Assembly (NCBI GenBank): GCA_947573925.1
Contig: CANPHS010000003.1
Coordinates: forward strand, 1 to 48,448
Reading direction: 5' to 3'
From: an uncultured Enterorhabdus sp.
GTDB taxonomy: Bacteria; Actinomycetota; Coriobacteriia; Coriobacteriales; Eggerthellaceae
DNA: 48,448 nucleotides
Under the pieces are notes generated by a model. The model searched no databases and had not been told where the DNA came from. It was given only the letters and a program-made list of their open reading frames with translations. The translations under genes were made by a program, and so were the position numbers. This document shows positions 11,097-48,379 of this stretch, piece after piece; position 1 is the stretch's first letter; every line of letters starts with the position of its first letter.

Positions 11097-11122
11097 TGGC
11101 GGAGGAGGAGGGATTCGAACCC
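11097..11122. mobile_element. prophage attachment core attL
   Basis: TGGCGGAGGAGGAGGGATTCGAACCC, 26 bp identical to 48354-48379 at the 3' end of the tRNA-Ser gene; integrase gene adjacent. Confidence 0.85.
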
Positions 11123-11230: not shown

Positions 11231-12349
11231 CTATGAACCGCCCATGGCCGCGTCGATGATGTCCGCGTCCCCGCGCAGGTCGGCCAGCTTCGGCTTGACG
11301 TATCGGTTGTAGGTGGTGGACGTGTCGCAGTGCCCCATCCACTTGGCCAGCCGGGCCACGTCTATGCCGGCGTTGATGCACGACGTGCCGAAGCTGTGGC
11401 GCATGGAGAACTGCGTGAGGTGCGGAAGCGGCTCGCCGTTATCGTAGCGCAGGCTCGCCCCGAACACCCGGGCGATGCGCTTGCGGGCGGTGGAGGGGCG
11501 CATCCTGGCGCCCTTGGAATCCACGACCACCGGCCCATCCCCGCCGCCCCAGGCCTCTATGCGCCGCAGGGCGTGGGAGGTCATGGGCACCGGGCGCACC
11601 GCCTTGGGGGTCTTCGGGTCTCCCAAGACCGGCTCACCCTCCCCCTGGGTGTACGCCTGCACGACCTGGATGCGGCGCTCGCCCGGGAAGACCGTCTCCC
11701 AGTCCAGTCCCAGCACCTCCTCCTTGCGCAGCCCGAAGCACAGGCCGAGCACGCACATGCGCTCCTCGGGCGTGTTGGGATAATGCTCCTCCATGAAGTC
11801 CAGCACCTTCTGTATCTCCGCGAAGGTTGACAGCCACACGCCGAAGTGGTCGTCCGGGTGCTGCGCCGCCTTGGGGTAGCTGTAGGTGAAGCCGGCGGGA
11901 TTCACGGGCATGGCGCCCATCTCAACCGCCAGGGAGAGCACCGAGGAGAGCGTCTCGCGGGCGTTGGTGGCCACCTTCTTGGAGCTGCACGAGGAGATCA
12001 TGCGCTGGATGCGCAGCCTGTCCAGGTCCTCCAGGGCCACGTCACCGAAGGCCGGCAGCAGCCTCAGGTTCAGATCCCGGTTGTATCCCTTCACCGTGGT
12101 GGGCCGCAGGGCCGCCTTCTGGGGCCAGAAGTACTCGTCCACGAACTCCCTGAACGTGATGCCGCCGTAGGACTTGCCCTGGAGCCGTTCCTTCAGCAGG
12201 AGCAGCTTGCGCTCTGCCGCCTCGGCGTCCTTCTTCCTGCGGTGCGTGGAGGTGCGCCGATCCGGCGATCCGTCCAGCCTCCTGCCCACGGTCACGTCGG
12301 CGATCCAGCCGCCCTCGGGCCGCTTCCTCACGGACATGGTACAATGCAC
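11231..12349 (-). CDS. int: prophage tyrosine recombinase (integrase)
   Basis: SAM-like core-binding region plus catalytic region with QFSMRHSFGTSCINAGIDVARLAKWMGHCDTSTTYNRY; next to attL; start may be ATG 12337. Confidence 0.9.
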   Translation of the reverse strand: MHCTMSVRKRPEGGWIADVTVGRRLDGSPDRRTSTHRRKKDAEAAERKLLLLKERLQGKSYGGITFREFVDEYFWPQKAALRPTTVKGYNRDLNLRLLPAFGDVALEDLDRLRIQRMISSCSSKKVATNARETLSSVLSLAVEMGAMPVNPAGFTYSYPKAAQHPDDHFGVWLSTFAEIQKVLDFMEEHYPNTPEERMCVLGLCFGLRKEEVLGLDWETVFPGERRIQVVQAYTQGEGEPVLGDPKTPKAVRPVPMTSHALRRIEAWGGGDGPVVVDSKGARMRPSTARKRIARVFGASLRYDNGEPLPHLTQFSMRHSFGTSCINAGIDVARLAKWMGHCDTSTTYNRYVKPKLADLRGDADIIDAAMGGS

Positions 12350-36326: not shown

Positions 36327-38849
36327 ATGGCATCCGACGGAACGATCACGTTCTCCACGGCGCTGGACAACTCGCAGCTGGAGAAGGGCATCAAGGCCGC
36401 CGAGCGCGAGGTGAAGCGCATCGAGGATAAGGTCTCGCGTGCCGAGACCACCAAGAGCGGCATCGAGAAGCAGATGGAGGCCGCAGAGGCCGCCATCAAG
36501 GAGACCGGCTCGGAGATCGACCGCCTCAACGCCAAGATGGCCGGGTTGGGCGGGGTGTCCGGCACCCGCGAGGGCTACGAGGCCCAGCGGGCCGAGATCG
36601 AGGGCACCGCCTCCGCGCTCGCGGCCGCACAGGCCCGGATGGAGTCCCAGGTCGCCGGCATCGACAAGCTGAACGGGCAGTGGCAGAAGGCCGACGAGCG
36701 GGCGCGGGCCTACACCGAGCAGCTGGGGCAGGCCAAGTCCCGCGCGGCGGAGCTGGGGGCTGAGTACCAGCGTTCGATGGCACGCGCGGCATCCTCCGCC
36801 GACATGGTGCGCAAGCGCCAGTCCGGGATCGGCGAGGCATACGCCAAATCGGTGGCCGCAGGCACCATGGACGCCGGGAAGTCGCTGTCGGCCTCGGAGG
36901 CCCGCTTCGCGCAGTTCTCCAAGCGCATAAAGACCATGATGAAGGACGCGTTCATCTTCTCTGGCGTACTCGTGGCCCTGAACGCCGTGAAGGAGCACCT
37001 GGCCGAGACCATGAAGGAGAACGACCGGTTCGCGGCGTCCTACGCCGTCCTCATGGCCACCATGAAGGGCTTCGCGGCACCGCTCGTGAACGCGGCAACG
37101 GCGGCCCTCACCGGCCTCATGAACATGCTGTCCCGGATGCTCGCGACCCTGGCGCAGCTCATCGACTCGGTGTTCCGCACCGACCTCTCCGGCTCAATCA
37201 AGGCCGCGAGGGCGGCCGCCCAGGCCGCCGAGCGCGAGGCAAAGGCCAAGAAGAAGACCGCCAAGGCGGCCAAGGAGGCCGCGAAATCGATCATGGCCTT
37301 CGACGAGATCAACGCCATGCAGGCGGACAAGAAGGACGAGAAGGACGACGAGCCCGCCGAGAAGCCGCTCGACTTCGACGCCCTGGGGGCCGGCAAGATC
37401 GACGAGGCCCTGGGGGCCATCATGGCCGTGCTGGGCGCGGCGCTCTTGGCCGTGGGCGCAATCCTGTGCTTCTCCGGCATCAACATCCCCCTCGGCATCA
37501 CGCTCATGGCCGTCGGGGCGCTCATGCTCTACACGGCCGTGCAGGAACAGTGGGGGAAGCTGCCCGCCGAGGTGCGGGAGGCCATCACGACGGCCCTCGT
37601 GATCGGCGGCCTGCTGTGCCTCGTCGTGGGTGCCGTCCTCGCCTTCTCCGGCGTCAACGTCCCCCTGGGCGTGGGGCTCATCGCCGCGGGCGCGGTAATG
37701 CTCGGGGCGGCGGTCGCCCTCAACTGGGGCAGCATGAGCGCCGAGGCCCAGGGGGTGGTGTCCGTCATGATGGGCATCCTGGGCGCGGCCCTGCTCGTCA
37801 TCGGCGCCATTCTGACCTTCACCGCCGCCAACCCCATGCTGGGCGTGGGGCTCATGATCCTGGGGGCCGCCGTGCTCGCGGCCGTGGTGGCCCTCAACTG
37901 GCAGAGCATGCCCGAGGAGGTGCAGGGCGTGGTCTCCGCGATCATGCTGATCGTCGGCATCGCCTTCCTCGTGCTCGGCGTGGTGCTCGCCTTCGCGGCT
38001 CCGGGGGCATGGGGGCTGGCGCTGGGCCTCATCATCGTGGGGGCCGCCGCCCTCGCCGGGGCGGTCGCCCTCAACTGGGAGAAGATGCCCAAGGAGGTCA
38101 GGGACACGGTGTCCACCATCATGGGCATCGTGGGCGGGGCCCTCGTGGTCATCGGCGTAATCCTGCTGTTCACCGGTGCGGGAATCCCCCTCGGCGTGGG
38201 CTGCATCCTCGCGGGCGCGGGACTGCTCGCCGCAGACGCCGCCCTCAACTGGGACTTCCTCAAGGACAAGATCGCAGAGATATGGGCGTCGATCTGCCGC
38301 TTCTGGGACGACAACATAGCCCAGGTGTTCACCGAGCAGTTCTGGGAGGATTTGTGGAAGTCCATGGTGAACGGCCTCATCTGGGCCATCAACTCCGGGC
38401 TGTCGGCCTTCGGCGGTTTCCTCAACGACATCTCGTCGGGCATCGGCGGCCTCTTGGGCGCCGTCGGCATCAACGACTGGTCGGGGTGGAACGTGCAGAT
38501 GCCGCAGATACCCTACCTGGCCCAGGGCGCGGTCATCCCGCCCAACCGCAAGTTCGCCGCCGTGCTGGGCGATCAGACGAGCGGCAACAACCTGGAGGCC
38601 CCCGAATCCCTCATCCGCCAGATCGTGCGCGAGGAGTCCGGGGGCATCGACGCCGACGCGCTGGCCTGGGCGGTGCAGCAGGGCGTGGCCATGGCCATCG
38701 TGCAGGCCATGCCCTCCCAGGGCGCCGGCGACAGCGACGCTACGATGGTCCTGCAAGTTGACGGCGAGGAGCTTGCCCGGGCCGTGGCCCGGGGCAACGC
38801 CTCGCTCATGTGGAAGGGGGCGTTGAGCCCCGAGATCCAGTTCGCGTAG
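36327..38849 (+). CDS. phage tail tape measure protein
   Basis: 840-aa; N-terminal coiled coil, central hydrophobic tandem repeats, tail-gene position. Confidence 0.88.
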   Translation: MASDGTITFSTALDNSQLEKGIKAAEREVKRIEDKVSRAETTKSGIEKQMEAAEAAIKETGSEIDRLNAKMAGLGGVSGTREGYEAQRAEIEGTASALAAAQARMESQVAGIDKLNGQWQKADERARAYTEQLGQAKSRAAELGAEYQRSMARAASSADMVRKRQSGIGEAYAKSVAAGTMDAGKSLSASEARFAQFSKRIKTMMKDAFIFSGVLVALNAVKEHLAETMKENDRFAASYAVLMATMKGFAAPLVNAATAALTGLMNMLSRMLATLAQLIDSVFRTDLSGSIKAARAAAQAAEREAKAKKKTAKAAKEAAKSIMAFDEINAMQADKKDEKDDEPAEKPLDFDALGAGKIDEALGAIMAVLGAALLAVGAILCFSGINIPLGITLMAVGALMLYTAVQEQWGKLPAEVREAITTALVIGGLLCLVVGAVLAFSGVNVPLGVGLIAAGAVMLGAAVALNWGSMSAEAQGVVSVMMGILGAALLVIGAILTFTAANPMLGVGLMILGAAVLAAVVALNWQSMPEEVQGVVSAIMLIVGIAFLVLGVVLAFAAPGAWGLALGLIIVGAAALAGAVALNWEKMPKEVRDTVSTIMGIVGGALVVIGVILLFTGAGIPLGVGCILAGAGLLAADAALNWDFLKDKIAEIWASICRFWDDNIAQVFTEQFWEDLWKSMVNGLIWAINSGLSAFGGFLNDISSGIGGLLGAVGINDWSGWNVQMPQIPYLAQGAVIPPNRKFAAVLGDQTSGNNLEAPESLIRQIVREESGGIDADALAWAVQQGVAMAIVQAMPSQGAGDSDATMVLQVDGEELARAVARGNASLMWKGALSPEIQFA

Positions 38850-42744: not shown

Positions 42745-43371
42745 ATGCCTTACATCGACTTGGGGCCGGTCGTCGGCAAGGACGGCGGGTTCGGGAACAT
42801 CACGAGCGACTACGTCAACGACGGCGGCAGCCCCGGCGTGGAGATCACCATGAGCGGCGAGGACGCCGCGAAGGACTTCCACTTCGAGTTCAAGAACCTG
42901 GTTAACGACCCGCTGACGAGCGCGGAGGTGAAGGCCATCGCCGCCGGCGAGCAGGTGCAGTCCTCAAGCGTCGTCAACGGCACGACACTGAGCCAGTTCT
43001 TCGGGCTGCTCGCCGAGGCGTTCGCGCCGGCCGACCACCAGCACGACGCCTCGGACGTGACGTCAGGCACGTTCTCGGGCGACATGCTGGCCGACAAGGC
43101 CGTGACCGCCGACAAGATCGCAGATAATGCGATAACCGCCGCCCAGATAGCCGACGGCACCATCACCCAAGCCAAGCTCGACGAGGCAACCCGGGATTGC
43201 TTGTCCCCGGTTCGAGTATGGGGAGGGGGAGAGTTCCCCTACAACAAGCCCACGGACCGCTCCTTTAGGGCATTCGGAGTCTACGGCTACTACGTCGCCG
43301 TTGACTCCGGGTCCAACGTTTGGGGCGGCTGCATCCTGAGCGATAACACCGTGACGTGGGTTAAGAGGTGA
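42745..43371 (+). CDS. tail fibre-like protein, constant N-terminus joined to switchable C-terminal cassette A
   Basis: Stalk-like DKAVTADKIADNAITAAQIADGTITQAKLDEATRD joined at site s1 (GAT TGC TTG TCC) to cassette A; stop TGA overlaps site s2. Confidence 0.78.
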   Translation: MPYIDLGPVVGKDGGFGNITSDYVNDGGSPGVEITMSGEDAAKDFHFEFKNLVNDPLTSAEVKAIAAGEQVQSSSVVNGTTLSQFFGLLAEAFAPADHQHDASDVTSGTFSGDMLADKAVTADKIADNAITAAQIADGTITQAKLDEATRDCLSPVRVWGGGEFPYNKPTDRSFRAFGVYGYYVAVDSGSNVWGGCILSDNTVTWVKR

Positions 43372-43385
43372 TTGCTTGTCCCAGA
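43196..43385 (+). repeat. 190-bp inverted repeat, left arm (sites s1 and s2, cassette A)
   Basis: Perfect reverse complement of 43957-44146 by manual alignment. Confidence 0.95.
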
Positions 43386-43666
43386 AAGACTGGATCGCCA
43401 TCTCCGAGGGCGTGATGGCGGCCAGGGCGGGTATGTTCGCGGTGGTTCTGGTCGACGTTCAGAAAAACTTCGCGCCGCGGGAGTGGACGGAGCTCGCCAC
43501 CCTCCCGGAGGGGATGAGGCCCGGCAGGACCCTCTACATGGACTCCCAGATAGGGGGCTACACCGCCCGCGCCTACGCCAACGCCGACGGCCTGCTGCAG
43601 GTCTACAACCTGCGATCTGCCGCCGGCAGCGCGATGGCCGACACTCTGCTCGTGCCGCTGGTGTGA
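43371..43666 (+). CDS. silent C-terminal cassette B, in-frame from site s2
   Basis: GAT TGC TTG TCC CAG AAA GAC TGG = DCLSQKDWIAISEGVMAARAGMF...LLVPLV; same phase as s1 fusion junction. Confidence 0.75.
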
Positions 43667-43669
43667 CCC

Positions 43670-43971
43670 CTACGCGGCGTAGGAGTCGTGCCAGCGGCAC
43701 GACGTGCCCACGGTGCCCCCGTGCACCCTGATGCGGCCCTCCTCGATGGCGAGGTGCCCTGCCGGCGTGTCGCAGTACACGATGCCGGCCAAGGGCGCGG
43801 GCAGCGCGGGGCTGGTGAGTACCTGCTCGTACCCGCCGGTATGGGCGTAGACGCAGGTGATCAGCCCCGACACGTGCACGGTGTGCCCGTCGCGGTAGAT
43901 GCGCACCTGCTCGATCTTGTGGGTGGCGTTGGCAGTGTTCGCGGCCACCTCGTTTCTCTGGGACAAGCAAT
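43670..43971 (-). CDS. silent C-terminal cassette C, opposite strand, in-frame from site s3
   Basis: GAT TGC TTG TCC CAG AGA AAC GAG = DCLSQRNEVAANTANATHKIEQVRIYRDGHTV...RWHDSYAA; same phase as s1. Confidence 0.75.
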
Positions 43972-44146
43972 CACCTCTTAACCCACGTCACGGTGTTATC
44001 GCTCAGGATGCAGCCGCCCCAAACGTTGGACCCGGAGTCAACGGCGACGTAGTAGCCGTAGACTCCGAATGCCCTAAAGGAGCGGTCCGTGGGCTTGTTG
44101 TAGGGGAACTCTCCCCCTCCCCATACTCGAACCGGGGACAAGCAAT
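43957..44146 (-). repeat. 190-bp inverted repeat, right arm (sites s3 and s4, cassette D = copy of A)
   Basis: Perfect reverse complement of 43196-43385. Confidence 0.95.
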
Positions 44147-44149
44147 GCC

Positions 44150-45118
44150 CTACGCGGCCATGGGCAGCTCCACGGGTGCGGGGGTCAGCTGGATGCCCCT
44201 GTACATGTCGTCGCAGGTCTTGCCGAGTATGCGGCGGGACAGCTTGCGCTGGGCGCGGAGCACCTTGGCGCGGGTAAGCGCGATGTAGTAGCGGTAGCAC
44301 GTGCCGATGTCGCTGTGCCCGAGCATCCCCGCCAGGTCGTTGATGGGCACGAGGTCGGCGGCCAGGGTCGCGAACGTGTGCCTGAAGTTCTGCATGGTGA
44401 TCTTGGGCAACTTGTGGGTCTTTATCCACCGCCGCACCCGGTAGGACGCCTGTGCGGGCGTCAGCTCGCCGATCACGCGGCCCTTGGGGCGGCCCCGCCC
44501 CACCCATATCTGGTGCAGCCTGTCCAAGGCCCAGGGCGGCAGGTACAGGTCGCGCTCGCCCTTGGCGGTCTTGGTCGGCCATTCGCGCGTGCCGTCCGAT
44601 GTCGTCTGGAGCGTGGCGCGTATGGGCACGAGGCCGGTGCGCCAGTTGACCTGCTCCCACTTGAGGGCGTAGCTCTCGCCGGGCCTGAGCCCCAGCGATG
44701 CCGAGAGGATGACCGTGGCCTCCACCTCGCAGCCCACCATGCCGCGTATGAGCTTTTTCAGCCTGCGGTGCGTCAGCGTCTCGGGCCGGTAGGCGGGCAC
44801 GCGGGGCTTCTCCACGTGCTGGGTGGGGTCCCACACCCTCATGCGCCACTTGGCGAGCGCCCAGCGCACGATCTGGCGCAGGCACTTGTACGCCTTCCAC
44901 GCGCCCCCGGGGCCGCACTCCTTGGCCATGTCGTCAACCCAGGCCTGCACCTCGTCAGGGTCGATGGCCGCGATGGTCGCGCCCGCCCAGCGGGGCAGCA
45001 CGTGGAGCCTGATGCTGCTCTCGTAGCCGTCAACCGTGTTGGTGCGGCGGCGCGACCTCTTGGCCGGCAGGTAGTGCTCCAGGGCGATCTGCCCGATGGT
45101 GAGGGATGCGGGGTTCAT
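44150..45118 (-). CDS. tyrosine recombinase, candidate shufflon/tail-switch recombinase
   Basis: Core-binding domain plus SLGLRPGESYALKW, NFRHTFATLA, LGHSDIGTCYRYY; stop codon 3 bp from site s4; start MNPASL at 45118 with GGAGG upstream. Confidence 0.85.
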   Translation of the reverse strand: MNPASLTIGQIALEHYLPAKRSRRRTNTVDGYESSIRLHVLPRWAGATIAAIDPDEVQAWVDDMAKECGPGGAWKAYKCLRQIVRWALAKWRMRVWDPTQHVEKPRVPAYRPETLTHRRLKKLIRGMVGCEVEATVILSASLGLRPGESYALKWEQVNWRTGLVPIRATLQTTSDGTREWPTKTAKGERDLYLPPWALDRLHQIWVGRGRPKGRVIGELTPAQASYRVRRWIKTHKLPKITMQNFRHTFATLAADLVPINDLAGMLGHSDIGTCYRYYIALTRAKVLRAQRKLSRRILGKTCDDMYRGIQLTPAPVELPMAA

Positions 45119-48353: not shown

Positions 48354-48379
48354 TGGCGGAGGAGGAGGGATTCGAACCC
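48354..48379. mobile_element. prophage attachment core attR (within tRNA-Ser 3' end)
   Basis: 26-bp match to 11097-11122. Confidence 0.85.

Follow-up and report, generated by a model that had tools for sequence, protein, structure and literature searches.

A Rin-type shufflon that probably swaps the tail-protein tips of an Adlercreutzia-group prophage

Described inversion systems and the present locus

The tail-fibre inversion systems of Mu, P1 and p15B rely on Gin, Cin and Min, which are serine recombinases with another site structure. They resemble the locus analysed here in that the C-terminus of a tail fibre is switched. A tyrosine recombinase of phage origin does this work in the Rin shufflon of Bifidobacterium breve and B. 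longum prophages, where it shuffles the C-termini of the receptor-binding protein and where inversion variants were seen in reads; the contrast with serine-recombinase tail-fibre inversion was already drawn there (Mavrich et al. 2018; PMC6109161). A rin shufflon with the repeat ttccgtat was described in 2022 in clade 1 of Eggerthella lenta prophages (PMC8778435). In the Rci shufflon of R64, the sfx sites combine a conserved core of 7 bp with a right arm of 12 bp (PMC11852207), and Rci has been placed in the IntP2 subgroup (PMC8138268).

We analysed a 48,448-nt stretch of DNA, hereafter the window, and suggest that it very probably carries a shufflon (multiple DNA inversion system) of the Rin type, situated in an integrated prophage of a gut bacterium of the Adlercreutzia group and swapping the tips of a tail protein; that this copy is active and that the tips bind receptors is what we infer. 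In the proposed mechanism, an arm-less tyrosine recombinase other than the phage integrase would recombine asymmetric sites of 12 bp. One site falls within the gene for the tail protein, where the constant N-terminus ends, and each remaining site would begin an alternative C-terminal cassette. Inversion between oppositely oriented sites would bring cassette A, B or C in frame behind the N-terminus, and several tail tips would then be displayed across the phage population, where they may bind host receptors. That a tyrosine-recombinase shufflon switches the C-terminus of a tail protein, as a previous reading of the sequence alone had proposed, is well supported by the anatomy of the locus and by rearranged relatives.

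The window and the Bifidobacterium Rin system are alike in having an arm-less recombinase separate from the integrase, the order Rc, Rv cassettes, rin, a short asymmetric site before each Rv, and a two-step inversion logic. In the window, too, an asymmetric repeat precedes every cassette; copies occur in both orientations, and the expressed cassette has two in direct orientation. It differs in the centre of its site ATTGCTTGTCCC, in having only three distinct cassettes and in its exact inverted duplicate of A; moreover, the PMBT6-type recombinase is only about 35% identical to that of the window. We judged homology to Rin through three loci (L107, L108 and L110) bearing the published Bifidobacterium rix TTCCCTAACCC, rather than through the Rin protein of Bb423phi1; their recombinases are 53-56% identical to the PMBT6 "integrase" and join the tree of the window recombinase. 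The E. lenta system shares with the window a related host (Eggerthellaceae), and its ttccgtat is the middle of ATTCCGTATCCC, present in most coriobacterial loci of our survey; the published repeat of 8 bp understates a 12-bp site. The window site, in contrast, has GCTTG for CCGTA at its centre and codes for DCLS rather than DSVS. With the R64 Rci shufflon the window shares C-terminal cassette switching, two-faced segments, an arm-less tyrosine recombinase and an asymmetric site. The target in R64 is, however, the pilV pilin of a plasmid, whereas in the window it is a phage tail gene, and window-type sites do not have the 12-bp right arm of sfx; their centre varies between loci, ATT and CCC alone being fixed. 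The sequence-only reading had compared the locus to R64 Rci and to Gin/Cin. Rci does work in a similar way, but the comparison set was incomplete: the direct precedent is neither of these but the phage Rin shufflon (PMC6109161, PMC8778435). The window would thus represent a Rin shufflon with a new site centre, a tyrosine invertase acting on a phage tail gene having already been published.

A four-site array in an integrated prophage

The prophage spans about 37 kb (11097-48379) in a tRNA-Ser gene, bracketed by a 26-bp repeat, with a CI-like repressor close to its integrase and the shufflon recombinase between the tail genes and the holin/endolysin genes (Table 1). The nearest relatives with a window-type recombinase are Adlercreutzia caecimuris and A. 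muris, placed in the genus of the host. Nucleotide searches returned no close phage record, and the N-terminal protein had no tblastn match among phage records. In the gene at 36327-38849, a 12-bp repeat occurs four times (37716-38252, spacing 174-177 bp); with its repeated hydrophobic stretches, the product looks like a tape-measure protein.

Table 1. Features of the prophage and of its shufflon locus (window coordinates)
Feature	Position	Strand	Remarks
Left attachment repeat	11097..11122		26 bp
Integrase of the prophage	11231..12349	-	372 aa; not the shufflon recombinase
N-terminal constant part (Rc-like) of the putative tail/receptor-binding protein	42745..43194	+	150 aa; ATG at 42745; ends ...ADGTITQAKLDEATR
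Predicted crossover site s1 (rix-like)	43196..43207	+	ATTGCTTGTCCC
Cassette A, C-terminus expressed at present	43208..43370	+	DCLSPVRVWGGG..., 58 aa
Predicted crossover site s2	43371..43382	+	ATTGCTTGTCCC
Cassette B, first face of two-faced segment	43383..43666	+	DCLSQKDWIAIS..., 98 aa in fusion
Cassette C, second face of two-faced segment	43670..43959	-	DCLSQRNEVAAN..., 100 aa in fusion
Predicted crossover site s3	43960..43971	-	ATTGCTTGTCCC
Cassette A'	43972..44134	-	exact inverted copy of A
Predicted crossover site s4	44135..44146	-	3 bp from the recombinase stop codon
Rin-type tyrosine recombinase	44150..45118	-	322 aa; Pfam SAM_3 from residue 13, and Phage_integrase
Right attachment repeat	48354..48379		26 bp; in the 3' end of tRNA-Ser

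Four copies of ATTGCTTGTCCC are found in the window, two on each strand, and allowing one mismatch adds none. Across the whole 2.42-Mb genome, GATTGCTTGTCCC has three copies, all at the shufflon locus, the fourth site reading CATTGC.... The anatomy described by the sequence-only reading was reproduced throughout: the four sites have exactly the positions and strands that it had given, B stops at 43666 and the stop codon of C begins at 43670, 3 bp apart on opposite strands, and the recombinase stop codon (44150-44152) follows s4 at the distance claimed. The single reading phase proposed for all four sites was likewise borne out. The frame beginning at 42745 is open from its ATG and in frame with s1, and in silico joins to the constant N-terminus are all open (N-A 208 aa, N-B 248 aa, N-C 250 aa). 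By inversions alone, four sites allow 12 arrangements and three different proteins. Exchange of s1 with s4 is silent because A' equals A. As had been noted, N-B arises by inversion only after an s1 x s3 step, s1 and s2 being direct repeats in the present arrangement; their recombination would delete A and give N-B too.

Cassette C is 65% identical to cassettes of two relatives, L006 (+) and L024 (-), and thus occurs in both orientations among relatives; A is 37% identical to a cassette of L007, and B 33% to one of L005. A Pfam search of the cassettes gave no match above cut-off and no recognised binding domain. The repeat stalk of the 42745 protein has weak PHROG matches to tail fibres, and its position ahead of the holin and endolysin genes, its stalk-like repeats and these weak tail-protein matches suggest a tail protein with receptor-binding tips. 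An imperfect 26-bp inverted repeat without a T-run spans the junction of B and C (43650-43702); it may act as a bidirectional terminator, or record how two-faced segments come about.

The duplicated cassette

From one site to the next, cassette A matches its inverted copy A' at 100% identity, as the sequence-only reading had claimed for its fourth cassette; past the outer edges of the sites the likeness ends at either side. With flanks included, identity is 99.5% over 193 bp. Such a duplicate can arise from exchange between two phage isoforms, in which one product would gain a second copy and the other would lose its own, or as an assembly chimera of two isoforms. We give the chimera an even chance. 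The real locus would then have three sites and one A, its isoforms N-A-B/C-rec and N-B/C-A-rec having been mixed in the sample. Not one substitution separates A from A', the genome is broken into 213 contigs and only 85% complete, an exact duplicate is present in the window alone among the 39 coriobacterial-type loci of our survey, and a short-read assembler could plausibly link isoforms in this way. On the other hand, exchange between isoforms in a replicating phage would produce the duplicate as well, and a Bifidobacterium-type locus (L096, IMGVR_UViG_2609460028_000001) has a like architecture: the same 640 bp, comprising two cassettes, recur there in inverse orientation without a mismatch, with both ends at sites, one copy beside the N-terminus and the other beside the recombinase, as with A and A' in the window. 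The question concerns the duplicate only. Since both origins require the mixing of isoforms, a chimera would be no argument against the shufflon, and the duplicate is the strongest indirect hint that the copy in the window is active.

Related loci

Searches for homologues of the recombinase gave 13 of 201 related genomes, GTDB genomes from Eggerthellaceae, Olsenella and Collinsella, and IMG/VR contigs; these recombinases adjoin like arrays in Eggerthellaceae, Coriobacteriaceae and Bifidobacterium phages. We assembled a set of 39 loci with at least two sites each, a few of them being the same phage in two collections. All show a recombinase followed by an array of one repeated motif of 11-12 bp; in 35 of them the distance between the last site and the recombinase stop is 11-39 bp. 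Nearly every distinct site (159 of 160) opens at least 40 aa in the common phase D/H-S/C-V/L-S; for the remaining phases the figures are 22% and 41%. The commonest whole 11-mer, TTCCGTATCCC, occurs in 23 loci; the others are TTCGCTGTCCC, TTCCTTATCCC, TTCCATATCCC, TTCCGTAACCC, TTCCAAATCCC, TTCCTTGTCCC, TTCCCTATCCC, TTCTGTATCCC and TTCGGTAGCCC, together with TTGCTTGTCCC, which among the 39 loci is confined to the window. The little-studied phage Rin shufflon is thereby extended to Adlercreutzia-group prophages, and recurs across Coriobacteriia and Bifidobacterium.

Several loci deserve separate mention. An array of TTCCGTAACCC lies beside the "integrase" genes of Bifidobacterium phage PMBT6 (L037, MK932884.1, 31228-32100) and Siphoviridae sp. 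ctl617 (L038, OY725605.1, 36956-37828), which are probably misnamed and look like Rin-type shufflon recombinases. The largest array of the survey (L029, G151:C1) has 12 sites, 11 in the same direction and one inverted beside the recombinase; it should be prone to deletion unless recombination between direct repeats is avoided. At two loci (L008 and L025) there is no site beside the recombinase, and another 3' sequence is common to both. Two more distant recombinase relatives (L053 and L054, one in an Akkermansia-labelled bin) have no recognisable site array.

Natural inversion states

Compared for other cassette orders, a check that the sequence-only reading had recommended, related prophages do not share one fixed arrangement: several pairs differ, with breakpoints inside the site. 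The clearest pair, L069 and L071, is one phage in two states, with identical flanks and recombinase and with cassette blocks that are 99.9-100% identical, inverted and reordered, and that end at sites. One site of this pair has a mismatch, ATTCCGTATCAC. In L069 this variant is found where the array meets the N-terminus, in L071 where it meets the recombinase; the cassette on its right is the same in both states, and the sequence on its left is that of the local flank. As the variant moves with the cassette while the left flank stays, the crossover must fall inside ATTCCGTATC, within 10 bp. Further rearranged pairs are L089/L090 (two copies on one contig), L093/L094 and L103/L104. The inverted pair nearest to the window is L006 and L024 (A. 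caecimuris B7), whose recombinases are about 75% identical to that of the window; a 579-bp two-faced segment is inverted between them and is 94% identical, like their recombinase genes. Contig pairs from different samples each capture two fixed states rather than the act of switching. Related phages in differing states are natural experiments on tail-tip variation in gut phages.

The recombinase

The core-binding domain SAM_3 begins at residue 13 of 322, leaving no arm-binding domain, and the closest PDB profile matches of the protein are XerC-like and XerD. In an alignment of eight relatives, R145, R246, H268 and Y278 are invariant, and the position of the HxxR histidine is occupied by Gln in the window protein and by Lys or Thr in most others; the alignment suggests catalytic roles for these residues. 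The window protein also shows a one-residue gap.

The gap and the Gln at HxxR could indicate that the locus is a relic, with recombinase or sites dead and the four sites left by an active ancestor. This would accord with the searches for other states of the window prophage, which gave no alternative junction within its own genome (213 contigs, 85% complete), the exact N-junction pattern being absent from all other viral contigs searched. (A contig matching the paired-site pattern, L088, carries a plain repeat without recombinase and was dismissed as a coincidence.) We nevertheless regard a relic as improbable. All four sites are exact, the frames are intact and the recombinase is full length; the perfect identity of A and A', ending exactly at sites, implies recent exchange there; and relatives with clear recombination likewise have no HxxR histidine (Lys in L006).

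We give almost no credence to the possibility that this recombinase is the prophage integrase and that the repeats are att-like or coding and do not invert, even though PHROG and the databases name it an integrase. Another integrase adjoins the left att repeat, and the shufflon recombinase is distant from att; its relatives nearly always adjoin a cassette array and are found in inverted states. In the recombinase tree, the window protein lies far from the prophage integrase and groups with Bifidobacterium Rin-type recombinases. Not every fork of this tree is firm, and where the Bifidobacterium branch falls within the coriobacterial groups is weakly supported. The presence of the separate integrase thus points to a dedicated invertase. 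A chance origin of the repeats is dismissed by the four sites found versus 0.18 expected with one mismatch allowed, none of 100 shuffles reaching four, and a serine-invertase system is ruled out by the Phage_integrase (tyrosine) domain.

Site structure and the central overlap

The site consensus is a 12-bp ATTsnnnnTCCC, or ATTsnnnn[T/A]CCC when aligned with the published sites. In all 160 sites, TT and CCC are unchanged, partly by virtue of the search pattern TT[C/G]....CCC, which the first discovery of the arrays did not require, and the preceding A is present in 92%. A few bases to either side, information is down to the background level, and conservation ends at CCC; some of the enrichment at -4 to -2 may reflect stop codons and the Asp/His codon. 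What is gained is a testable site definition, with fixed ATT/TCCC and a free centre.

The centre differs among loci and is constant within nearly every locus. The recombinases of L008 and L060 are 93% identical, yet their centres are CGCTG and CCGTA, respectively. On the recombinase tree, the centre switches repeatedly among close relatives, CGCTGT requiring at least four forced changes. This variation between close relatives, combined with agreement within a locus, points to a crossover overlap. The simplest reading would be that the centre is the strand-exchange overlap, matched between partners and not read by the protein, which fits the general mechanism of tyrosine recombinases.

More tentatively, and with some doubt, we propose that the Rin overlap is reprogrammable: the recombinase would read only ATT...TCCC, and the central 5-6 bp would be free to vary provided that every site of a locus matches. 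Near-identical recombinases such as those of L008 and L060 would then act on different centres, cassettes could be passed between phages and converted to the centre of their new locus, and isoform exchange would duplicate or delete them. If so, actinobacterial gut phages would have in common a library of tail tips that grows and shrinks. With its swapped centres, the pair L008/L060 opens the overlap hypothesis to a direct test. A further locus (L095, IMGVR_UViG_2503754041_000001) contains two site variants, TTCCGTAACCC and TTCCGTACCCC, which are possibly two site groups or a site in transition.
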